Source of the DNA: Fluviicola taffensis DSM 16823
Lineage (GTDB): Bacteria > Bacteroidota > Bacteroidia > Flavobacteriales_D > Crocinitomicaceae
NCBI RefSeq assembly: GCF_000194605.1
Contig: NC_015321.1
Coordinates: 806,001-870,000, forward strand
DNA: 64,000 bases
Direction: 5' to 3'
Shown here: in pieces, positions 1 through 11,150 of the stretch
Numbering within the stretch: the stretch's first letter is position 1
How the letters are laid out: the number at the start of each line of letters is the position of its first letter
Notes under the pieces: model-generated
Databases searched by the model: none
What the model was told of the DNA's origin: nothing
What the model saw: the letters and a program-made list of their open reading frames with translations, nothing else
Position numbers and translations under genes: made by a program

Positions 1-1823
1 GTCATTACAGGTGCTGTTGGTGGTTCCAAGATACGGAAACACAAATCAAACAATGCTTGTGCTTTTGTATCTGCCGTTTTTAGAGCATTCACGGAAGAGA
101 AAATCTGTCCCTGAAAGCTTCTTCCATAAACAATCCCTACCGTAATGTTATTTACCGCTCCTGGTTTTAAAGTAAATGGTCCTGCTGACTGTACAAAACG
201 ACGGTCACCAGATGGGTTTGATGTTGAATTCAATCCACATGGCTCAAATTCAGACCAGCTCGCTCCTGGATCTTGACCCTCTGTTGCCCAATGCAAAGTA
301 TCTGAATCTGCTGGGAACATATAATTTGTTCGGATTGTTGAAGAAACACATGGAGCGCCTGGGAAACCTGTACCTCCATAATACAATGGATCTCCTAACT
401 GCCACAATCCTTGCATATAATTGTAATACTGAACAGAAGATGTTGGATCTGCTTGCCCTATTGGTGCAAGATTCCCTGTATAAATCGTAAAGTTACGCAT
501 ACCGTAGCGCTCATTATCAGCAATTCCATCACCATAACCTAGTCCAAGTCCTCTGTAAACGATACCCGTATCCAATAATGCCTGAGATACAGTTGGACTA
601 ACCCATTTATTTGAAATAGAGTCAAATACAGGCCCCACATTATCTCGCCCATCTGCATCTTGATAAGGACCTTCGAAAAAGTCAACACCAATTGCCGGAG
701 GATTTTGTCCAAAACCTGGACGACCTCCATTTGGTTCGTCAAGCAAATCACCATTATACATGTAACTCAATCCACGTGTTACATCACAACCAGCATAATC
801 ATCTGCATTATTTCCTAAATCTGCATCAATGTATTGGGAGAAGTAAGTATTATACAAGGTTTGTGTACCTCGGTTGATCAACTCGTAGTTATAGAAAGTC
901 ATTTTATTGATCTCATCATCTGTTGCAAATGCAAAAGCCTGAGCATGAATTTCCATTCCAATTGGTTCACCCTGTGATTCCGTATGACTATTTCCTTGGT
1001 CATTAAATACCCACCAATTGGTAACGTCACCAAACAAGGTAACACGTCTATCCGCTCCACATTGAACGTCATTACGTCCTAAGATATCATCGTACCAAGG
1101 ATATTCACCATCTGAAGGCTCATAAACAAAGTCATCATCTAAATCCTTGAAAGGAGCCAAAAATTGATCTTCACCTAAACTTGCATTTCCATTTCCTGGC
1201 CATGCATTGATTTGAGCCAAGGTTTCATTGGATGGTTCTGGACAATCACCCGTCGTACATTCATTCCAAACAATAAATCCGATTACTCCAGCTTTAGTAA
1301 TTGTGAAAATGTTGTCATACAAGAGACAGCTTTCTGGTGTAATCGCACCAACACCAGAATTACGTGTTGTAGCATCACCTTGAGGAACATTCGGATTGAA
1401 ATTACCAGTCCCAAAATTCACTGTTAACGGACCAGGCCAAAAATCATTTCCTTCGTTTCGGAATTTAACTGCCGCCAATTTTAGTTGACCATTAATGTTT
1501 TTCCCTCCCATCCACAATGCTCCAGCATAAATTACTGTAACAGCTGTTTCACTTCCTTTTTTCTTAGGAACAGTATAAGTAGCAAGGTTATTTGATCGGT
1601 CTAAGAACAACAAACCTCCAGTTTCCAAACGACAACTAACGTCGTTAAAATCCATTACTTTGCTGTAATTAGCAGGTGCACAATTGGCAGCCTTTGTTGT
1701 TACTGTGGGCTTCGGTTTACCACCTGATTTCCCACTTTTCTCAAAATCATAATTGTATGCGCTGGCTTCGCCAACGAAACACATCGTAATTGCAAGAGAT
1801 AAGTATTTAAATGTTCGTTTCAT
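1..1823 (-). CDS. Large T9SS-type secreted protein, second copy (3' end outside window)
   Basis: The reading frame starts at the ATG complementary to 1821-1823 and stays open to the window edge, so only the N-terminal ~607 residues are visible. It is a close paralogue of the gene at 3156-7340: positions 1-1823 align with 5521-7340 with a net difference of one codon. The signal peptide (about residues 1-23, MKRTFKYLSLAITMCFVGEA) is identical to that copy. The visible part is rich in Gly, Asn, Asp and aromatic residues, as expected of an exported beta-rich protein; no enzymatic motif is recognised. Its C-terminal sorting domain cannot be seen and is inferred from the paralogue. A terminator lies between it and the PorV-like gene upstream, so it probably needs its own promoter, but no clear TAnnTTTG was found in 1824-2010. 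Divergence from the other copy is concentrated in residues ~135-195 and ~382-515. Confidence 0.85.
   Translation of the reverse strand, partial: MKRTFKYLSLAITMCFVGEASAYNYDFEKSGKSGGKPKPTVTTKAANCAPANYSKVMDFNDVSCRLETGGLLFLDRSNNLATYTVPKKKGSETAVTVIYAGALWMGGKNINGQLKLAAVKFRNEGNDFWPGPLTVNFGTGNFNPNVPQGDATTRNSGVGAITPESCLLYDNIFTITKAGVIGFIVWNECTTGDCPEPSNETLAQINAWPGNGNASLGEDQFLAPFKDLDDDFVYEPSDGEYPWYDDILGRNDVQCGADRRVTLFGDVTNWWVFNDQGNSHTESQGEPIGMEIHAQAFAFATDDEINKMTFYNYELINRGTQTLYNTYFSQYIDADLGNNADDYAGCDVTRGLSYMYNGDLLDEPNGGRPGFGQNPPAIGVDFFEGPYQDADGRDNVGPVFDSISNKWVSPTVSQALLDTGIVYRGLGLGYGDGIADNERYGMRNFTIYTGNLAPIGQADPTSSVQYYNYMQGLWQLGDPLYYGGTGFPGAPCVSSTIRTNYMFPADSDTLHWATEGQDPGASWSEFEPCGLNSTSNPSGDRRFVQSAGPFTLKPGAVNNITVGIVYGRSFQGQIFSSVNALKTADTKAQALFDLCFRILEPPTAPVM
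1..1823. repeat. Near-identical duplication of 5521-7340
   Basis: Direct repeat of about 1.82 kb whose partner is 5521-7340. Long stretches differ by only a few bases (for example 1-278 against 5521-5798), while inner blocks differ strongly. Identity stops exactly at the start codon: the bases upstream of the two ATGs are unrelated. The repeat continues beyond the window start for an unknown distance. Confidence 0.95.
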
Positions 1824-2011
1824 AGTAATATTTTTTACTTGGAAATTAATTTGCCCCCCTTTAAAATATTAAGTTCACATGTAAAGAATGGGTTAGATTC
1901 TCTCATATTATGATGAACGCAAACAATGGAAAAATGGTTGGTGAAATTCAAGATAATTCGTCTAAATATATGCAAGCTAAAATAGAGGTCTGTGCAAGTT
2001 GAGTCAAAAAA

Positions 2012-2042
2012 AAACAGGAGAGTCAAATTGACTCTCCTGTTT
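2012..2042 (-). terminator. Intrinsic terminator of the TonB/cargo/PorV-like unit
   Basis: A perfect 15-bp inverted repeat (AAACAGGAGAGTCAA at 2012-2026 and its complement at 2028-2042, centre 2027). Read on the minus strand it is followed by an unbroken T run (complement of 2005-2014). It lies 27 bp past the stop of the PorV-like gene and separates it from the second cargo copy. Confidence 0.9.
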
Positions 2043-2068
2043 CAAATAAAAATATTAATCTAATGAGC

Positions 2069-3133
2069 TTATTTAATGCTAATAGTAGCTCCAAATGTAT
2101 GAATTACTCCAAATACTCCAGCCAATCTCATTGCGTACTCCAATCCCAAAGCCGATTTATTTTTACCAACTAAAGCGTCAGCAGAGAAACCTGCCGTTAA
2201 ACCAGTCAATGCATTTGAACGATTTTCTGTTTTGAAAATTCCTTTCTCTGCAATATAACCCGCACGAATATTGAATGCTACTCTATTTAATGTCATTCCA
2301 TAATCTAAACCTAAACGGTATTGATCTTTTTGGAATGAATTAGCTGTAAATGCTGCACTTAGAATTAACTTATTCTTTTCATTCATATTGAAATCATAAG
2401 ATCCTCCAATATTCAATAAAGAAGGTAATTCATAGGTTGCAGAACGTTGCTCCAAAGTTGCAATACCACCAGTAGCCAAAATATTAACTTGATCTGATAG
2501 CCCATCACCTTTATACTTCATTACAGGACCAACATTCTTTAGAGCAATTCCAAATTTAATTTGGTCTTGCTCACCAGTAACATATCGGATACCAGCATCG
2601 AATGCAACTCCAGTAGCTCTCAAATTCGAAATACTTTCAGAAATAACCTTGAAGTTAACTCCTCCATAAATACTCGAGGAAAAGCTATGAGCAAATCCAA
2701 CATTAAATATGTTCATTCTCGGAGAGAAAGTACCTTGATTTCCATCTGGTAAATCCACAGTCGTTATCAGATTATCTCCAAAATTCATAGATTGAATTGA
2801 GACTGCTATAACTGAAGAAGCTGAAATTCTTTGTGCGACACCTGCTGCATTTAATGCAATACCAGCACTGCCCATCCAGTTTGTTCTGTTAAACTTAATC
2901 TGCGTTTTATCAGTAAATGCTAAACCCGCTATATTGGTAAATGTTGCTTCTAAACCATTAACATGAGAAACACCTGCATCCCCAATAGCAAGACTTCTTG
3001 CCCATGGATTAACCAATAGTTGTGTCGCACCTGCCGAACCAACACGATCTTCGTTTCCAGCGAATACACTGGAGTAGCTCATCACTACTCCAGCCAATGC
3101 TGTACATCTTATAATATTATTAATCGATTTCAT
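2069..3133 (-). CDS. PorV/PorQ-family outer-membrane beta-barrel protein
   Basis: 354 residues. Residues 1-25 form a signal peptide ending SSVFA. The mature N-terminus carries the family signature: a Gly-rich RVGSAG stretch, then NPWARSLAIGDAGVS (about 42-56) and TNIAGLAF. The rest alternates Gly/aromatic beta strands and ends in a short barrel strand (ISIK). PorV and its relatives belong to the FadL-like barrels; PorV binds the C-terminal sorting domains of T9SS substrates and carries them from the translocon to the attachment machinery. The gene lies 22 bp after the giant cargo gene and is the last gene before a strong terminator, so a dedicated partner or shuttle role for that cargo is a reasonable inference but not shown. 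It may be a paralogue rather than the housekeeping PorV. Confidence 0.85.
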   Translation of the reverse strand: MKSINNIIRCTALAGVVMSYSSVFAGNEDRVGSAGATQLLVNPWARSLAIGDAGVSHVNGLEATFTNIAGLAFTDKTQIKFNRTNWMGSAGIALNAAGVAQRISASSVIAVSIQSMNFGDNLITTVDLPDGNQGTFSPRMNIFNVGFAHSFSSSIYGGVNFKVISESISNLRATGVAFDAGIRYVTGEQDQIKFGIALKNVGPVMKYKGDGLSDQVNILATGGIATLEQRSATYELPSLLNIGGSYDFNMNEKNKLILSAAFTANSFQKDQYRLGLDYGMTLNRVAFNIRAGYIAEKGIFKTENRSNALTGLTAGFSADALVGKNKSALGLEYAMRLAGVFGVIHTFGATISIK

Positions 3134-3155
3134 ATGTTTTGCTTAACAGAATTGA

Positions 3156-6100
3156 TTAAATAGTTTCTAAATCGACTTGTCTCATTCCACCAAAGAACTT
3201 AACAATACGTTCTCCAACTCCTGGAACATCCACATGAATCAAGTAAACTCCACTTGCAATTGGAACTCCGATAGAATTCTTCAAATCCCAGTCAATCGTT
3301 GTTACTGGATTGTCTTTCTTATACTGACGAATCATTTTTCCACTCACGTTGTAGATTGTTACCGTACACTGATCTGGTAGGTTTACAATTTTAACACGCG
3401 TATCAACTCTGTTTCGCTCGTATTCAGAAAATGCATAGTAAGGATTTGGAACAACATTGATTAAATCCAATGCGCTTGCCAAAGCATCTCTACTTCCTGT
3501 CGTGGTTTGTAAATCATTCATCGACCAAGAATACATTGGTTTACCTCCATTAAGTCCCGTTGCTGTAAAATCAGCATATTGCTTGTTTACTCGCAATTTC
3601 AATCGTGCTGTGGACTCCAAAACGCTATGACCTGGTGCTGTAATCGTGTTAGCAATCCACATCAAACTTGTATACAATTTCTTGTAGGAAGTATTTGTTG
3701 CTATTTGGAATTGATCGTAAACCCACGTGTTCGTGCCATCGTAATAAGGACAACCCTCATTGTTGATGTTTACTCCAAATACCCAAATCGGTTGGTTACC
3801 TCCATTTACATACAACCCATTTCCGTCTGTCTGTCTGCTTGATGGATTCCAAACCATGTCTGCTCCATTGTCTCCTCCTAAGAACGAATTCTCTCCAAAA
3901 GCCATGTGCAAACGTGCGCCTGTTTCCAAATCAATTGCATAACCTGGGAACCAACCCATACCTGTAGTTGGAGTTCCGTCAGGATTTCCATTCTTGTCTA
4001 CTGATGCGGATGCCCGAGGACGACCTGGTAAACCTCCTCCTTGATTCAAATTCGCATCGCGACCTAGTTCTACAACCACACAACGAGTCCATTTTGTCTT
4101 ATCTGGAGTCATAACGATATCTACGCTAGGTAACGATTTGATCGATGCATTAGTACGAGCAATCGGTATTCCTCCATAATTTGTCGGATAAGCCAATGGC
4201 ATGAAATCACATTGATAACCTGTCAACTTGTGTGGACCTACTCCGCCACCCAATAATTTGTTGTACTTCTCCTTTGGATCAAGACCTATCTCATCTTGGA
4301 AACAACATGGATTCAAATAAGTCGCGCCTCCCCAAGTATCACAATCTGTTGCTTGAACAGGGGCATAAGTCCCCGTTCTTAACCAGTTTCGTGGTGTCAA
4401 GGATGCATCATCTTCTACAAAATCCAACCACCGCTTTGTGGAATCTGAATACGAAATCGACGAAGACAAGGGATCTGTGTACAAATAAAAAGCTGAATTA
4501 GGTGCTACAGGGTAGTAGTACTTATCTTGGAAAATCTCAATCGAAACTCCCCATTTGGGAACTACCTGCTCATTCCCTTGTTTAATCGTTACATCCGATG
4601 TTACGGAATCCAATAAATTACCCCCTTCTGTATCATACCTGTTAATAACCCAACTAGATGTGTCAATTCCTTTAATCTCGGTAATTCCATTTCCTGAAAC
4701 ACCAACATAATTACGGAATTTACACTCAAAGTAACCGCCTACAACATTTAAGGGATCAACAACTTTCACATTGATTGGACCGCCATTGTAGTCATACTCC
4801 AATTTATCTTTGAAGCCATTAGCTACAATCGCATCCTCAGATGCTGTTGTTAATTCCAAGGATCTAGAACCATTTCCTGTTCCGTCTAGACGCGTAATAC
4901 GTGGCGTTTGACCATAGATAGAATTTGCTATAGATCCGCCCGCTTCTGGTGCTATCTTATGAGGAACCGCTGGAACTCCTTGCAACGTAGATCCATCTGC
5001 ATTAATACGTGAACGTAAGTATGGTTTTTTCTGCCCATCTAAATATTGGGCATCACTTGGATCATATGCTTTATAACTATTGTAACCATAAGCTACTGCG
5101 ATATAGTAATACGTTTTAAAGTTAACTAAGCGGCGATCTCCTGCAGCAAATAAATCCTCTGTAACTCTAAAGGTATGCTTGATCCCTGCATCAGTACCAT
5201 TTACTTTCTCTACTGGGAATGAATAACCTAGTTGCTCATCAAATTCAAAGTTAATCAAGCGTTTTACTCCATTTTTAATATCACACTGTGCTACTAAACG
5301 TGCAAACTGATCATCATCCAAATCTGTAATACCTACCTGAGCATCTTTCAATTGATAAATTTGGTAACCTTCAAATCGATAGAATTTATCATAAACAATT
5401 CCCCCTGTTGCTGGGTCAACGATACCAATTAAATCTTCTTCCGTATATTTTTCCTTGAAGTTATTGGATGTTTTTGGATTATCTAACATGATAATCAACT
5501 CATTCCCCATTTCTTGGAAAGTCATTACAGGTGCTGTTGGTGGTTCCAAGATACGGAAACACAAATCAAACAATGCTTGTGCTTTTGTATCTGCTGTTTT
5601 TAGAGCATTCACGGAAGAGAAAATCTGTCCCTGAAAGCTTCTCCCATAAACAATCCCTACCGTAATGTTATTTACCGCTCCTGGCGTTAAAGTAAACGGT
5701 CCTGCTGACTGTACAAAACGACGGTCACCAGATGGGTTTGATGTTGAATTCAATCCACATGGCTCAAATTCAGACCAGTTAAATCCTGGATCTTGACCCT
5801 CTGTTGCCCAATGTAAAGTATCTGAATCTGCTGGGAACATGTAATTTGTTTCGATTGAAGAAACACAAGGGGCTCCAGGGAAACCTGTACCACCATAATA
5901 CAACTGGTCGCCAAATTGCCACAATCCTTGCATATAATTGTAAAACTGAACAGAAGATGTTGGATCAGATTGTCCTGCTGGTGCATTTTGACCCGTATAA
6001 ATCGTAAAGTTACGCATACCGTAACGCTCATTATCTACAATAGTATCTCCATATCCAATACCTAATCCACGGTAAACAATCCCTTTATTAGCAATTGCAC

Positions 6101-7340
6101 TAGAAACGGAAGGAATAACTAAAAGTCCCGTAGCTGGATTAACAACTGGTCCTGGATTATCTAATCCATCTGCATCTTGATAAGGACCTTCGAAAAAGTC
6201 AACACCAATTGCAGGAGGGTTTTGTCCAAAACCTGGACGACCAGCATTTGGTTCGTCGTTCAAGTCGCCATTATACATGTAGCTCAATCCACGTGTTACA
6301 TCACAACCAGCATAATCATCATTGTAGTTACCTAAATCCGCATCAATGTATTGGGAGAAGTAAGTATCATACAACGTTTGTGTACCTCGGTTGATCAACT
6401 CGTAGTTATAGAAAGTCATTTTATTGATCTCATCATCTGTTGCAAATGCAAAAGCCTGAGCATGAATTTCCATTCCAATTGGTTCACCTTGTGATTCCGT
6501 ATGAATATTTCCTTTATCATTAAATACCCACCAATTAGTAACGTCACCAAACAAAGTAACACGTCTATCCGCTCCACATTGAACGTCATTACGTCCTAAG
6601 ATATCATCGTACCAAGGATATTCACCATCTGAAGGCTCATAAACAAAGTCATCATCTAGATCCTTGAAGGGAGCCAAAAATTGATCTTCACCTAAACTTG
6701 CATTTCCATTTCCTGGCCATGCATTGATTTGAGCCAAGGTTTCATTGGATGGAGCAGGGCAATCACCAGTCGTACATTCATTAAAAGTAATGAATCCAAT
6801 TACTCCAGCTTTAGTAATGGTAAAAATGTTGTCATACAAGAGACATTCTTCTGGTATAATTGATCCAGCACCATAATCACGTCTAGCTGTATCACCTTGA
6901 GGAGCATTCGGATTGAAATTACCAGACCCAAAATTCACTGTTAACGGACCAGGCCAAAAATCATTTCCTTCGTTTCGGAATTTAACTGCCGCCAATTTTA
7001 GCTGACCATTAATATCTCGTCCTCCCATCCACAATGCTCCAGCATAAATTACTGTAACAGCTGTTTCACTTCCTTTTTTCTTAGGAACAGTATAAGTAGC
7101 GAGGTTATTTGATCGGTCTAAGAACAACAAACCTCCGGTTTCCAAACGACAACTAACGTCGTTAAAATCCATTACTTTGCTGTAATTAGCAGGTGCACAA
7201 TTGGCAGCCTTTGTTGTTACTGTGGGCTTCGGTTTACCACCTGATTTCCCACTTTTCTCAAAATCATGATTATATGCGCTGGCTTCGCCAACGAAACACA
7301 TCGTAATTGCAAGAGATAAGTATTTAAATGTTCGTTTCAT
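3156..7340 (-). CDS. Giant T9SS-sorted secreted protein (1394 aa), first copy
   Basis: Signal peptide at residues 1-23, then a Lys/Gly/Thr-rich linker and a very long beta-rich region with many Asn, Asp, Gly and Tyr residues and scattered cysteines (for example ECTTGDCP near residue 190). The last ~95 residues look like a T9SS type A sorting domain: VVPNPYY, then VKIVNLPDQCTVTIYNVSG, WDLKNSIGVPIASGVYLIHV and a final GERIVKFFGG block. Such domains are recognised by the T9SS and usually removed when the protein is anchored or released. No catalytic motif is recognised. The gene starts 19 bp after the TonB-dependent receptor gene and is followed 22 bp later by the PorV/PorQ-like gene, so the three are probably one operon. 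A second copy follows after the terminator. The function is unknown; a surface structural, adhesive or binding protein is possible. Confidence 0.9.
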   Translation of the reverse strand: MKRTFKYLSLAITMCFVGEASAYNHDFEKSGKSGGKPKPTVTTKAANCAPANYSKVMDFNDVSCRLETGGLLFLDRSNNLATYTVPKKKGSETAVTVIYAGALWMGGRDINGQLKLAAVKFRNEGNDFWPGPLTVNFGSGNFNPNAPQGDTARRDYGAGSIIPEECLLYDNIFTITKAGVIGFITFNECTTGDCPAPSNETLAQINAWPGNGNASLGEDQFLAPFKDLDDDFVYEPSDGEYPWYDDILGRNDVQCGADRRVTLFGDVTNWWVFNDKGNIHTESQGEPIGMEIHAQAFAFATDDEINKMTFYNYELINRGTQTLYDTYFSQYIDADLGNYNDDYAGCDVTRGLSYMYNGDLNDEPNAGRPGFGQNPPAIGVDFFEGPYQDADGLDNPGPVVNPATGLLVIPSVSSAIANKGIVYRGLGIGYGDTIVDNERYGMRNFTIYTGQNAPAGQSDPTSSVQFYNYMQGLWQFGDQLYYGGTGFPGAPCVSSIETNYMFPADSDTLHWATEGQDPGFNWSEFEPCGLNSTSNPSGDRRFVQSAGPFTLTPGAVNNITVGIVYGRSFQGQIFSSVNALKTADTKAQALFDLCFRILEPPTAPVMTFQEMGNELIIMLDNPKTSNNFKEKYTEEDLIGIVDPATGGIVYDKFYRFEGYQIYQLKDAQVGITDLDDDQFARLVAQCDIKNGVKRLINFEFDEQLGYSFPVEKVNGTDAGIKHTFRVTEDLFAAGDRRLVNFKTYYYIAVAYGYNSYKAYDPSDAQYLDGQKKPYLRSRINADGSTLQGVPAVPHKIAPEAGGSIANSIYGQTPRITRLDGTGNGSRSLELTTASEDAIVANGFKDKLEYDYNGGPINVKVVDPLNVVGGYFECKFRNYVGVSGNGITEIKGIDTSSWVINRYDTEGGNLLDSVTSDVTIKQGNEQVVPKWGVSIEIFQDKYYYPVAPNSAFYLYTDPLSSSISYSDSTKRWLDFVEDDASLTPRNWLRTGTYAPVQATDCDTWGGATYLNPCCFQDEIGLDPKEKYNKLLGGGVGPHKLTGYQCDFMPLAYPTNYGGIPIARTNASIKSLPSVDIVMTPDKTKWTRCVVVELGRDANLNQGGGLPGRPRASASVDKNGNPDGTPTTGMGWFPGYAIDLETGARLHMAFGENSFLGGDNGADMVWNPSSRQTDGNGLYVNGGNQPIWVFGVNINNEGCPYYDGTNTWVYDQFQIATNTSYKKLYTSLMWIANTITAPGHSVLESTARLKLRVNKQYADFTATGLNGGKPMYSWSMNDLQTTTGSRDALASALDLINVVPNPYYAFSEYERNRVDTRVKIVNLPDQCTVTIYNVSGKMIRQYKKDNPVTTIDWDLKNSIGVPIASGVYLIHVDVPGVGERIVKFFGGMRQVDLETI

Positions 7341-7358
7341 ACTTTAATTAATTTTTTC

Positions 7359-10300
7359 TTAGAAATCAAACTTAACCCCTAAACGTATAGTTCTAGGAAT
7401 ACTAATATTGTACGGGTTAGCTACTTTCATATTGTAGTAATCTCTAAAAGACTGTTCGTCCAATTGATTCTGAATAGATGTTTGGTATTGAGCCGCAGCT
7501 AAGTACCCATCATCGTTCCAGTTCCCTGTTGCTCTGTATGCACTAAGAACGTTCATTGTATTGAAAAGGTTGGTAACTCGAAGATAAACATTCAAATATG
7601 CTGATTTCTTCTTACCCTCTTTTCCGAAGTTCAAGCCAAAAGATCGATCTACTGTTAAATCCAATCGATACTGCCAAGGCAAACGAGATCCATTAACTGT
7701 TCCTGAAATACCTGAAGCATTTGGATTTTGTAATGCATCTCCTGTAATATTCGTTTGTGATGTATACGGAGATCCAGAATAAATATTTGTTACAAGATTT
7801 AAACCTGTATTTTCCAATATTTTAGCATCACCAATCATAGGTCCGTTATAATCCGCTCCTTCACCATAATGATAATCAAACGTAATAGCGAATGCATGAC
7901 GTTGATCATATGAATAAGGGAAAACACTTCTCAAGTTTGGCAAACCTGCTGTTTGAAGACCTGTTAACAAACTTTGAGCTGAAGTTGCATCAGAACCTGT
8001 TCCGTCAGCAAACTGTAAGGTATAAGCCGCAGTCATACGTATATTTCCTGTTCTACGTAAATCATACGTAACTGTCAAACCTTTTACTGTACCAAAATCA
8101 CGGTTTCCGTAAGTTCTATAAGTATTCGGGAATGCTTCAAACACATTCATTAATTGTACATTATTGCGTTGTTCACGGTAAAATGCAGAGATTTTTAATG
8201 ACGATGTTTTTGTTAATACTTGTTGGAAACCAATTTCGTAATCAATTGTTTGCTCAGGCTTTAAGTTTGAGTTGTTGATTACGTTTGATCTAGACTGAAT
8301 AAATTGATAATCAATTGGATTAAAACGATTACCACTTGTAGGTCTTTTTGTCAAGATATCATAATGTGCGAAGAAAGATGCCTCATCCGAAATTGGGAAT
8401 GAAAATGCAATACGCGGCATCACATTAATTTGCGGTTTGTAATCTTCAAACACATTCGCGTTTACTTTTTTGCTCTTAAATGCAGCTGGATCTTTCAACC
8501 AAGGTGAAATACCAACAGCTCCTTTAATTAATTTAGGATCTTCAATCGCAATACCATTTGCATCATACCACTGATCACCATTACGGAAACCTTTAATAGA
8601 ACCTGCATTAGAATAATCATCCACATATACAACATAGTCATCGCCCATTGTAGTTGGAATAACCATATTCGAATATTTAGCAGGGTCTGCATCAATCAAA
8701 GATTTAGCTTCACGCACGTTGTTTGCAGAGTAAACCAAATACTTATCTTTCAATACTGGTTGATTTGCATCGAATACATCCACACGTACACCTACGTTGA
8801 AGACGATATCTTTGAATGCAAATTTATCCATAATGTATCCAGAAATATATACAGGTTGGAAAGCTCCAATAAAACGTTTGTAATTCCCGTTTTCATCAAA
8901 GTCATTAAAATATTTTTCAATATCTGTATTTCCTTTAACTCTTTTACCTGTTTGATCATAACCATAGTAATTGATGTAGTTATTACCTTGATTAAACAAT
9001 TCATCTGCGGAGAACATGTCTAAACTGAAAACACTTGGATCATACGCATCAATATTAATTAAATCTGTTCCCGCAGGATCAAATCCTAATTTCTTACGTA
9101 AATTGTAATCAAAGAAACCTTGTTGGTCACTGATACGCTCTCCTCCATATTCACCAGTTCCTGAAAGGAATGCATTACCAATATTCAAGCGATCATAGCT
9201 ATATTGTTGGTAAGATCCAAAATCAACGATTGTAGGATTTGACAAATCCAATTCTTTAATATGACTATTCGCTTTCAAACGAGCCAAAGTCCATAATTGA
9301 ATAGGACCAGTCAATGATGTATTTCCATCTCCCCAGCCTCTATCCCAGCGTTGCTCATATTCAAATCCTAATGAAATTGAATGGTCTCCAACGTTAACAG
9401 AACCTGATCCTGTGATACGGAACTGATCTTGTTCATTTCTTCCAAATGAATTATTAGGACTACCGATATTATTCCAAATTCCATATACTGCATCTGGAAC
9501 ATCCCCATTTCTTAGAGCACGACCACCAAGTACCTCATCTAATTTTCCATAATGTCCAACAGGATCATTTCGGAATGCTTCAAAGTAATTTGTTGTTATC
9601 GCTGCTAGAGCCGCATTTGTTTCAGAAGCTTGAAATTGAACTAAGTATTCTTCTGGAACGGCTGTTTGGTAGTAATTGTGATCTAAATTATTGAACTGAT
9701 AGGTTGTTCTGTACAATCTATCAAACTTCCCAACATGTCCATAACTAAACAAATCAAACTTATGTTTTCTATCGTATTGTTCTGATTTAGTTTTTGAATA
9801 ATCAACCATTAACGAGTAGAATGCTGATTTCACTTTAGAACTAGACCCCTCTTTATTATTAGAGAAACGTTGAGTGAATCTACCGTATACCCGATAATCT
9901 AATTGATTAAACACTCCATTGTTTGCAAAATTCAACAATGAATTACTATAACTATACTGATCACCAAATGAGTAATTCAATGAACCTCCAAAAGTTAAAT
10001 TCACAGACGGCCCCGTGTTTATATCAATTTTTGCAGACGCAGAAAGGGATGAACGAGCAGCATTCATTCTCCATGCAGTTTTCTCAAAATCACCTGCTCT
10101 TAAATAATTTGCATTGTGAAAAGTTCCATTACCAGTAGCACTTGCTCTTACAGGATTTGACAACAAGTTATCTCTTGCTTCTTTTTTAATTCTATAAGAA
10201 CCTCCGTATAAAGGACGATCATCCAATTCATTGGTGTAATTTACAGATAACAAGAATCCTAAAATAGGTTTTGTTTTCTTACCTGTTGAGTCTTTACGCA

Positions 10301-11150
10301 TCAAAAGCGGTCCGGAAATCAAGCCTTCAACCAAGTTGTAACCGAACTTATCCAATCCAATCACTTTTCCATCATAACCATCTGGATCTTTTCCTTTAAA
10401 ATAGAACCCTGAAGTCACTCCCTCAATCGAACCAAAATACTTAGCAGACGGACCTCTTGTTGTTACAGCGATAATACCACCAGTTACGTCACCGTAATTT
10501 GCTGGCAAACCTCCTGTAATAACAGAAACTTCTTCAATTGCTGATTTTGGCAAGTTAGAAGACCCTCGAACTTTGATACCATCAATGTAGAAATAAGTAC
10601 CATCGGATCTAGATCCACGAACAGATATTTCATCTGATCCTTCTTTTGCGTTTACACCTCCAATGGTAGCTGCGGCACCTGCAGCAGTACGAATAGGCAT
10701 TCTCGCAAAGTCCTCTCTAGTAACAGTTCCCCCAGAAGGACCACCATCTTTATTAATTAATGGAATCCTATAGGCTACAACTACTACTTCCTCGATGTCT
10801 TTTACATCGGAAGGAAGTCCAAGAGCAGTATTATCCAAGAAGGTAATTCTATCAGCATTTACAACAACACCTTTAATTGCCGTTGGCTGATAACCTTCAC
10901 CTGGATTACTGATCTCAACATCATAGGAACCTGGAGACAACGCGTTAAGTTGAAACTTACCATCTGTATCAGTGGTAGTATTCGCCTTAACTGTTCCATT
11001 TTGCTTGACGACAACGATACAATCGTATATTGCCTCCTTGCTGTTCTTGTCAACAACACTTCCACGAACAGTTCCCAAACCTGATTGAGAATACCCGTAA
11101 GAGATTGTCAGTAAGATACTTGCAATTAACAAGTTGAGTTTACGTAACAT
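7359..11150 (-). CDS. TonB-dependent outer-membrane receptor with carboxypeptidase-regulatory-like domain
   Basis: 1263 residues. Signal peptide 1-22 (ends GYSQ). A CarboxypepD_reg-like beta-sandwich spans about 25-110 (starts GTVRGSVVDKNSKEAIYDC, includes TDTDGKFQLNALSPGSYDVEI). The plug domain follows at ~135-235 with EISVRGSRSDGTYFYIDGI, VSVITGGLPANYGDVTGGII and TTRGPS. The remainder is a 22-strand-type barrel ending in the typical aromatic residue (KFDF). This is the architecture of SusC-like and RagA-like receptors that move large substrates using TonB energy. No SusD-like lipoprotein lies next to it, so it is not a standard SusCD pair; instead it heads a unit with a giant T9SS cargo and a PorV-like protein. 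The substrate cannot be read from the sequence. Confidence 0.93.
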   Translation of the reverse strand: MLRKLNLLIASILLTISYGYSQSGLGTVRGSVVDKNSKEAIYDCIVVVKQNGTVKANTTTDTDGKFQLNALSPGSYDVEISNPGEGYQPTAIKGVVVNADRITFLDNTALGLPSDVKDIEEVVVVAYRIPLINKDGGPSGGTVTREDFARMPIRTAAGAAATIGGVNAKEGSDEISVRGSRSDGTYFYIDGIKVRGSSNLPKSAIEEVSVITGGLPANYGDVTGGIIAVTTRGPSAKYFGSIEGVTSGFYFKGKDPDGYDGKVIGLDKFGYNLVEGLISGPLLMRKDSTGKKTKPILGFLLSVNYTNELDDRPLYGGSYRIKKEARDNLLSNPVRASATGNGTFHNANYLRAGDFEKTAWRMNAARSSLSASAKIDINTGPSVNLTFGGSLNYSFGDQYSYSNSLLNFANNGVFNQLDYRVYGRFTQRFSNNKEGSSSKVKSAFYSLMVDYSKTKSEQYDRKHKFDLFSYGHVGKFDRLYRTTYQFNNLDHNYYQTAVPEEYLVQFQASETNAALAAITTNYFEAFRNDPVGHYGKLDEVLGGRALRNGDVPDAVYGIWNNIGSPNNSFGRNEQDQFRITGSGSVNVGDHSISLGFEYEQRWDRGWGDGNTSLTGPIQLWTLARLKANSHIKELDLSNPTIVDFGSYQQYSYDRLNIGNAFLSGTGEYGGERISDQQGFFDYNLRKKLGFDPAGTDLINIDAYDPSVFSLDMFSADELFNQGNNYINYYGYDQTGKRVKGNTDIEKYFNDFDENGNYKRFIGAFQPVYISGYIMDKFAFKDIVFNVGVRVDVFDANQPVLKDKYLVYSANNVREAKSLIDADPAKYSNMVIPTTMGDDYVVYVDDYSNAGSIKGFRNGDQWYDANGIAIEDPKLIKGAVGISPWLKDPAAFKSKKVNANVFEDYKPQINVMPRIAFSFPISDEASFFAHYDILTKRPTSGNRFNPIDYQFIQSRSNVINNSNLKPEQTIDYEIGFQQVLTKTSSLKISAFYREQRNNVQLMNVFEAFPNTYRTYGNRDFGTVKGLTVTYDLRRTGNIRMTAAYTLQFADGTGSDATSAQSLLTGLQTAGLPNLRSVFPYSYDQRHAFAITFDYHYGEGADYNGPMIGDAKILENTGLNLVTNIYSGSPYTSQTNITGDALQNPNASGISGTVNGSRLPWQYRLDLTVDRSFGLNFGKEGKKKSAYLNVYLRVTNLFNTMNVLSAYRATGNWNDDGYLAAAQYQTSIQNQLDEQSFRDYYNMKVANPYNISIPRTIRLGVKFDF

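Follow-up and report, generated by a model that had tools for sequence, protein, structure and literature searches.

An operon of a TonB-dependent receptor, a giant type IX secretion cargo and a PorV-like barrel in Fluviicola taffensis and across the Bacteroidota: a candidate SusD-independent importer

The window analysed here, a stretch of 64,000 nucleotides (nt) of Fluviicola taffensis DSM 16823 (positions 806001-870000 of a genome of 4,633,577 bp in a single contig), opens with a minus-strand trio of genes that encode a TonB-dependent receptor (TBDR), a giant cargo protein of the type IX secretion system (T9SS) and a β-barrel of the PorV/PorQ family (Table 1). The trio is a candidate importer that would operate without SusD. 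Its genes are separated by gaps of 18 and 22 nt and end at a terminator-like hairpin. An earlier sequence-only reading of the window had described the three open reading frames (ORFs), their strand and spacing, the strong terminator and the lack of a SusD homologue, all of which agree with the present analysis; SusD_RagB (PF07980) has no match anywhere in the F. taffensis genome. That reading missed a second cargo gene in the window. The T9SS translocon SprA is present in the genome.

Table 1. Features of the trio locus in the window (positions counted from the first letter of the window).
Feature	Position	Strand	Basis
TBDR, gene 1 of trio, 1263 aa	7359..11150	-	ORF; CarboxypepD_reg and Plug; orthologues at same position in all intact trio loci of the Crocinitomicaceae
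CarboxypepD_reg domain of TBDR, residues 27-103	10842..11072	-	PF13620, E 5.6e-12
Plug domain of TBDR, residues 142-225	10476..10727	-	PF07715, E 2.2e-8
Giant T9SS cargo, candidate surface receptor or lid, 1394 aa	3156..7340	-	ORF; TIGR04183 above cut-off; family conserved phylum-wide
Trio-type C-terminal sorting domain (CTD) of cargo, about residues 1291-1394	3159..3470	-	best NCBIfam match PorZ CTD, 25.7 bits; PorZ 5m11 profile match; cross-validated subtype
C-terminal CTD extension MRQVDLETI, past last predicted strand	3159..3185	-	alignment; after strand 7 in a relative's low-confidence model
PorV/PorQ-family 14-strand barrel, gene 3 of trio, 354 aa	2069..3133	-	NF033709; sole solved-structure match PorV 6h3i
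Terminator-like hairpin closing trio	2011..2043	-	15-pair stem and T tail, 25 nt after last stop; consensus match only
N-terminal part of second cargo gene, continuing outside the window to G000:C1:803615	3..1823	-	without receptor or barrel of its own

The C-terminal sorting domain (CTD) of the cargo is of the type A kind recognised by TIGR04183, with a marginal score of 25.6 bits against a cut-off of 23, while Pfam Por_Secre_tail (PF18962) remains below its cut-off; apart from this domain, the window cargo matches no family. The hallmarks of type B substrates, a TIGR04131 CTD and a PorP/SprF-type barrel, are absent among the NCBIfam matches of the window proteins. The barrel matches the broad PorV/PorQ family (NF033709, 129.5 bits versus a cut-off of 90) and falls below the cut-offs for PorV (NF033710, 61.1 versus 250), PorQ (NF033711, 73.5 versus 220) and PorV2 (NF052325, 36.2 versus 325). 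The true PorV, PorQ and PorV2 of the genome score 404.9, 300.6 and 481.9 bits, respectively, on these models; PorV is encoded next to the end of a CTD-bearing PorU-like gene and PorV2 next to PorU2. By its profile scores, the trio barrel is thus a PorV/PorQ-family member that stands outside the named types.

The trio extends far beyond Fluviicola. Where the ends of the locus are intact, the Crocinitomicaceae and related Flavobacteriales keep the gene order TBDR, cargo and barrel. A cargo profile matches 287 of the 299 genomes of the order and 201 of the 203 that are of high quality. Genome searches scored the best few candidates per genome, and copy numbers are thus lower bounds. The phylum sample comprises 296 Bacteroidota genomes, 228 with SprA and 68 without, and the cargo profile matches 151 of them. 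An N-terminal cargo profile, used for the T9SS comparison so that generic CTD matches cannot count, matches 143/296 genomes; these include 143/228 (~60%) of the SprA-positive genomes and 0/68 of the SprA-negative genomes. Within the phylum sample, the cargo family is restricted to T9SS genomes. Outside the order and away from contig edges, 37 of the 38 cargo genes of a first set of loci reside in complete trios. A second, more even set, drawn largely from weaker-scoring and more distant families, yields 34 complete trios; the exceptions are an extra cargo-barrel pair behind the same receptor (L198), two tandem cargos (L218) and contig edges. A total of 126 complete trios, from many families and several classes, have the order TBDR, cargo and PorV-like barrel; the median gaps are 21 and 23 nt, and the TBDR is the first gene in every case (126/126). 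This arrangement is far beyond chance. It is also found in a cultured strain, Rhodothermus marinus DSM 4252, where plasmid pRMAR01 encodes a TonB-dependent receptor, a hypothetical protein and a PorV/PorQ family protein. The co-occurrence beyond the genus that the sequence-only reading had proposed to look for is therefore phylum-wide, and the scattered homologues without conserved neighbourhood that it had named as counter-evidence are not seen in the loci surveyed.

Two other views of the distribution are ruled out. A genus-specific system is incompatible with the phylum survey, and a horizontally mobile island is rejected for the order, as the cargo occurs in nearly all of its high-quality genomes and genes of greA and HIT size usually lie downstream, although the R. 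marinus trio is carried on a plasmid.

Genomes of other families can encode many trios (e.g., five in G328 and six or more in both G362 and G563), and each trio is composed of a TBDR, cargo and barrel. Pairwise protein distances over 66 trios correlate among the three proteins with r of 0.92-0.94. Restricting the comparison to pairs within a genome takes out the species tree and gives r of 0.957 for cargo and TBDR, 0.937 for barrel and TBDR and 0.885 for cargo and barrel; among 2000 within-genome shuffles, 0, 0 and 4, respectively, attain these values. In L198 (G408), the gene order is TBDR-cargo-barrel-cargo-barrel, a joint duplication of cargo and barrel that follows a single receptor. Judged from these comparisons of sequence, the three genes form an operon that is inherited, duplicated and diversified as a whole; physical contact is a separate matter. 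The earlier suggestion that the genes form one unit is upheld in this sense by the synteny, the many paralogous trios per genome and the matching trees.

The trio cargos are ~1000-1700 aa in length and lack recognised enzymatic domains; eight cargos from diverse loci have no match to a Pfam family above cut-off, including the SusD family. Their last ~100 residues form a conserved subtype (VVPNPY ... NLP..C...I...G.L.R ... WDL.N ... ASG.YLIHV ... G....K). Under two-fold cross-validation, the trio model outscores the canonical model for 155 of 156 trio-type CTDs, the exception being L026, which a contig end cuts short; for other T9SS proteins, the canonical model gives the higher score in 29 of 30 cases. 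Non-trio proteins that share the N-terminal domain of the cargo (~555 aa, in tandem arrays) end in ordinary CTDs. Most trio cargos have 8-12 extra residues past the last CTD strand (e.g., KFFGG-MRQVDLETI and KFGVV-KKRVQLNTF), and the nearest solved CTD to the cargo-family profile is that of PorZ (5m11, E 0.0056). The cargo is thus assigned, by profile and motif, a CTD subtype of its own. In the PorU:PorV and PorZ:PorQ pairs, a PorV-family barrel is joined with one CTD-bearing partner, the CTD of PorZ stays uncleaved on PorQ, and cognate PorV-like barrels are proposed in a review to shield CTDs from cleavage (PMC10202324). The other named PorV-family members of the F. taffensis genome, PorV, PorV2 and PorQ, are of types that pair with a single CTD-bearing protein. 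Type B substrates likewise stay on their own PorP/SprF barrels (PMC9143113, PMC12618676). The distinct CTD subtype, the separate subfamily of the barrel and the duplication of the cargo-barrel pair in L198 support a barrel that is dedicated to the cargo.

The trio is predicted to work like SusCD but is distinct from it: it has no SusD, its receptors fall short of the SusC model and its cargos match no Pfam family above cut-off. Ten trio TBDRs score 55-85 bits on SusC/RagA (TIGR04056, cut-off 368), mainly through the N-terminal domain and plug, and the window TBDR has no TIGR04056 match. With SusD presence judged by PF07980 alone, the 228 SprA-positive genomes divide into those with the cargo family and SusD_RagB (71), the cargo family only (72), SusD only (83) and neither (2). 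Thus, a T9SS genome nearly always carries SusD or the trio cargo family, if not both, and the cargo family is found in 72 of the 74 SprA-positive genomes that lack SusD. This complementarity is suggestive of a shared function and is not proof, because the pattern follows lineages and a single SusD family was used.

A polysaccharide-utilisation context surrounds several paralogous trios. Examples include: (i) the trio, a T9SS protein with a carbohydrate-binding module (CBM20), a LacI regulator and a glycoside hydrolase (GH) 13 amylase with CBM48 (L201), (ii) LacI, the trio, a CBM9 T9SS protein and a GH10 xylanase in a Rhodothermus-like genome (L231), (iii) the trio, an ABC-type solute-binding (sugar-binding) protein and GH130 (L232), and (iv) a CBM9 T9SS protein, the trio, a glucoamylase-like protein and GH3 (L191). 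Other loci hold a glucoamylase-like protein and a LacI-type regulator (L173), GH53 and a GH5-like protein (L185), GH13 (L194 and L174), a GntR/LacI-type regulator with two GHL10 proteins and GH38 (L192), or LacI and a peptidyl-prolyl isomerase adjoining the trio (L234). LacI-type proteins occur in 11 of the loci compared by BLAST. The xylan locus Rmar_1070-1074 of R. marinus is listed as a TonB-dependent receptor, a hypothetical protein with a T9SS signal, a hypothetical protein, a further hypothetical protein with a T9SS signal and a GH10 enzyme (PMC6987092 Table 1); it has the same annotated gene order as L231 and likely contains another example of the trio. The sequence-only reading had left display, anchoring and uptake as options. 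The evidence of these contexts and of the complementarity with SusD favours uptake, and pure display or adhesion is less favoured.

Trios also have neighbours of other kinds. A parvulin-type prolyl isomerase of ~560-600 aa adjoins many of them (L212:13509-15179, L201:3125-4813, L197, L198, L194, L174, L185, L195, L193 and L234); that of L212 has a lipoprotein-like start, and the enzyme is perhaps a chaperone for the cargo or receptor. In one group of families, the trio lies beside an extracytoplasmic function (ECF) sigma factor (L207, L208, L214, L200, L205, L209 and L203) and, in L202, L208-L211 and L213-L215, beside an LpxL-type acyltransferase and often a GWxTD protein; this setting has no sugar genes.

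SprA translocates CTD proteins, and SusD and BtuG lie over TBDRs. With trios often beside sugar-digesting enzymes, the trio is therefore probably an alternative to the SusCD importer: a TonB-dependent importer in which a surface receptor or lid, delivered by the T9SS and held by the PorV-like barrel, does the job of SusD. The cargo would cross the outer membrane through SprA and be taken over by the PorV-like barrel of its own operon rather than by the housekeeping PorV. It would be retained on this barrel through an uncleaved CTD, as PorZ is on PorQ and PorU on PorV, and the surface-held protein would act as a ligand-binding receptor or as a lid over the TBDR, which would import the captured ligand with TonB energy. 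A T9SS-secreted cargo would thus take the part played by a surface lipoprotein in SusCD (SusD) and BtuBG (BtuG). A broader claim is offered more tentatively, its chance being a little short of even: that trios represent a second, unrecognised class of Bacteroidota TonB-dependent nutrient importer, in which a T9SS-secreted, barrel-anchored protein replaces SusD, and are the main outer-membrane glycan-uptake architecture of the SusD-less T9SS genomes. In that case, the T9SS would change from an exporter of enzymes into an assembler of importers.

Several observations weigh against this importer. The trio of the window is flanked by greA, HIT, phosphopantetheinyl transferase and PcrB-like genes and by no glycan genes; the Crocinitomicaceae trio is a near-universal core copy without adjoining glycan enzymes. 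For this and other trios with no sugar genes nearby, the ligand would differ or not be a glycan. The complementarity with SusD is confounded by phylogeny, and gene linkage alone would yield matching trees without a complex. The C-terminal extension is absent from part of the cargo family, with a canonical ending (...FAVIK) in some lineages, and extra cargos without a receptor or barrel of their own occur in some genomes. Structure prediction adds little: an AlphaFold2 model of a close relative, in which the cargo CTD was joined to the barrel by an in-frame read through the cargo stop (11 paired rows), has a mean predicted local distance difference test (pLDDT) score of 46.9 and no usable interface, and that of cargo residues 30-1229 is unusable (pLDDT 52.4). 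The low-confidence joint model has a seven-strand CTD and a 14-strand barrel and finds PorV (8gl6) first in Foldseek, and is too weak to argue from. Thus, of the dedicated cargo and shuttle that the sequence-only reading had envisaged, the dedicated barrel gains support, and its role as shuttle or anchor is putative.

In one alternative, the barrel does no more than pass its specific substrate from SprA to the PorU attachment complex. The CTD would be cleaved off, the cargo would end up either attached to lipopolysaccharide or free, and the TBDR would be co-transcribed for regulation and do no physical work with the cargo. PorV is an established shuttle for type A CTDs (PMC5562754, PMC12618676), to which the cargo CTD is related, and the fold of the low-confidence model, a seven-strand CTD with a PorV-like barrel, suits such a role. 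The genome, however, already encodes housekeeping PorV, PorQ and PorU-type proteins, the trio CTDs separate from canonical CTDs in nearly every case although cargo-like N-terminal domains in unlinked arrays have ordinary CTDs, and it is the TBDR and cargo that have the closest trees of the three pairs. The shuttle-only role is therefore rated unlikely.

A role in surface display or adhesion, with the cargo as an adhesin or S-layer-like protein, the barrel as its anchor and the TBDR as a sensor or assembly aid of a system that imports nothing, is judged improbable. It draws on the great length of the cargos and their lack of recognised enzymatic domains, on the cognate anchoring barrels of type B adhesins (PMC9143113, PMC12618676), and on the tandem cargo copies and gene conversion, which are common in surface adhesins. 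It sits poorly with the LacI/GntR regulators, glycoside hydrolases, sugar-binding proteins and CBM-bearing T9SS proteins that adjoin several of the paralogous trios and with the invariable first position of the TBDR. That the genes are neighbours by history or dosage only, with no joint function, is very hard to credit: linked genes share trees even when they do not interact, but here order and spacing are kept across classes and in many paralogous copies with changing flanks, and the cargo occurs in no SprA-negative genome.

F. taffensis has three cargos and one trio-type barrel. The second cargo (1403 aa at full length, 95% identical to the trio cargo) begins 246 nt past the trio, behind the terminator, and greA and a HIT protein gene come after it, beyond the window; another paralogue is found at 1.28 Mb. 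Both additional copies retain a trio-type CTD and lack a barrel of their own; therefore, the single barrel may serve all three cargos. The three genes (window 3156-7340, L006:7612-11823 and L007:6266-10282) display recent gene conversion: over codons ~833-1300, the DNA of the distant copy matches that of the tandem copy at 99-100% identity, against only ~45-75% in its flanks. Full-length cargos outside trios are mostly tandem second copies, together with one standalone paralogue lineage of the order. This standalone paralogue (L007:6266-12766, L157, L158 and L163) is near ORFs of ~270-290 aa and ~420-430 aa, the larger of which is an M28 peptidase in L007. Tandem arrays of ~550-aa proteins, each with the cargo N-terminal domain and an ordinary type A CTD, occur in L188 (G550) and L180 (G362) with no adjoining receptor or barrel; nine are in the G550 stretch analysed and more on the contigs of this genome. 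CP034120.1 (L009, L026 and L041), titled Glaciecola amylolytica THG-3.7, has Fluviicola-like copies of these genes, with 85% identity and the same synteny, and the title probably reflects a misidentification.

SusCD is taught as the hallmark importer of the Bacteroidota, and polysaccharide-utilisation loci are found through susC/susD pairs. If the trio is an importer, searches that depend on SusCD overlook loci in entire classes (in 72 of the sampled T9SS genomes the cargo family is present and SusD_RagB is lacking), the published R. marinus xylan locus has a probable case that is annotated to date as hypothetical proteins, and a large, widespread protein family without a Pfam model gains a function. 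No earlier description of the trio was found in a literature search that also covered PorV with TonB receptors and SusD-independent loci and that included no preprints and few subscription papers, such that absence is no proof. What appears new is the SusD-less operon of a TBDR, T9SS surface partner and PorV-like barrel; the principle of a TBDR plus a surface partner is known. The trio also provides a testable case for the proposal that cognate PorV-like barrels protect CTDs and decide which T9SS cargos stay held at the surface (PMC10202324).

Among known systems, SusCD/RagAB shares with the trio a TBDR with an N-terminal CarboxypepD_reg domain, a dedicated extracellular partner, an operon, several paralogues per genome and loci that often include regulators and glycoside hydrolases. 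By contrast, the trio partner is a T9SS cargo with no SusD match and not a lipoprotein, the third gene encodes a PorV-like barrel and the TBDRs fail the SusC model. In BtuBG, a TBDR is capped by BtuG, an unrelated ligand-binding surface lipoprotein, with no barrel partner and no T9SS (work on BtuBG is cited in PMC12578637); the trio would similarly combine a TBDR with an unrelated surface partner, which is instead a T9SS cargo accompanied by a barrel. The PorZ:PorQ and PorU:PorV pairs resemble the arrangement proposed for the trio in that a PorV-family barrel holds a CTD-bearing surface protein, with the PorZ CTD the nearest among solved structures, whereas the trio barrel and cargo fall below the PorQ and PorZ family cut-offs, are linked to a TBDR and have many paralogues per genome. 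PorU2:PorV2, found in F. taffensis at 2.84 Mb (1732 and 379 aa; L008:1653-7997, G000:C1 ~2.834-2.840 Mb), likewise sets a PorV paralogue next to one CTD-bearing partner, but this partner is sortase-like and there is no TBDR. In the type B pairs SprB:SprF and PG1035:PorP, the gene of the substrate is followed immediately by that of its own FadL-family barrel, for secretion and anchoring (PMC9143113, PMC12618676); the trio differs in its type A-like CTD, its PorV/PorQ-family barrel and the TBDR that precedes the pair. BamG:BamH of the Bacteroidota β-barrel assembly machinery (BAM) also uses a FadL-family barrel to hold an extracellular partner (PMC12578637, PMC12611786), although in a machine for outer-membrane-protein assembly and with a lipoprotein, BamH, in the place where the trio has a T9SS cargo.

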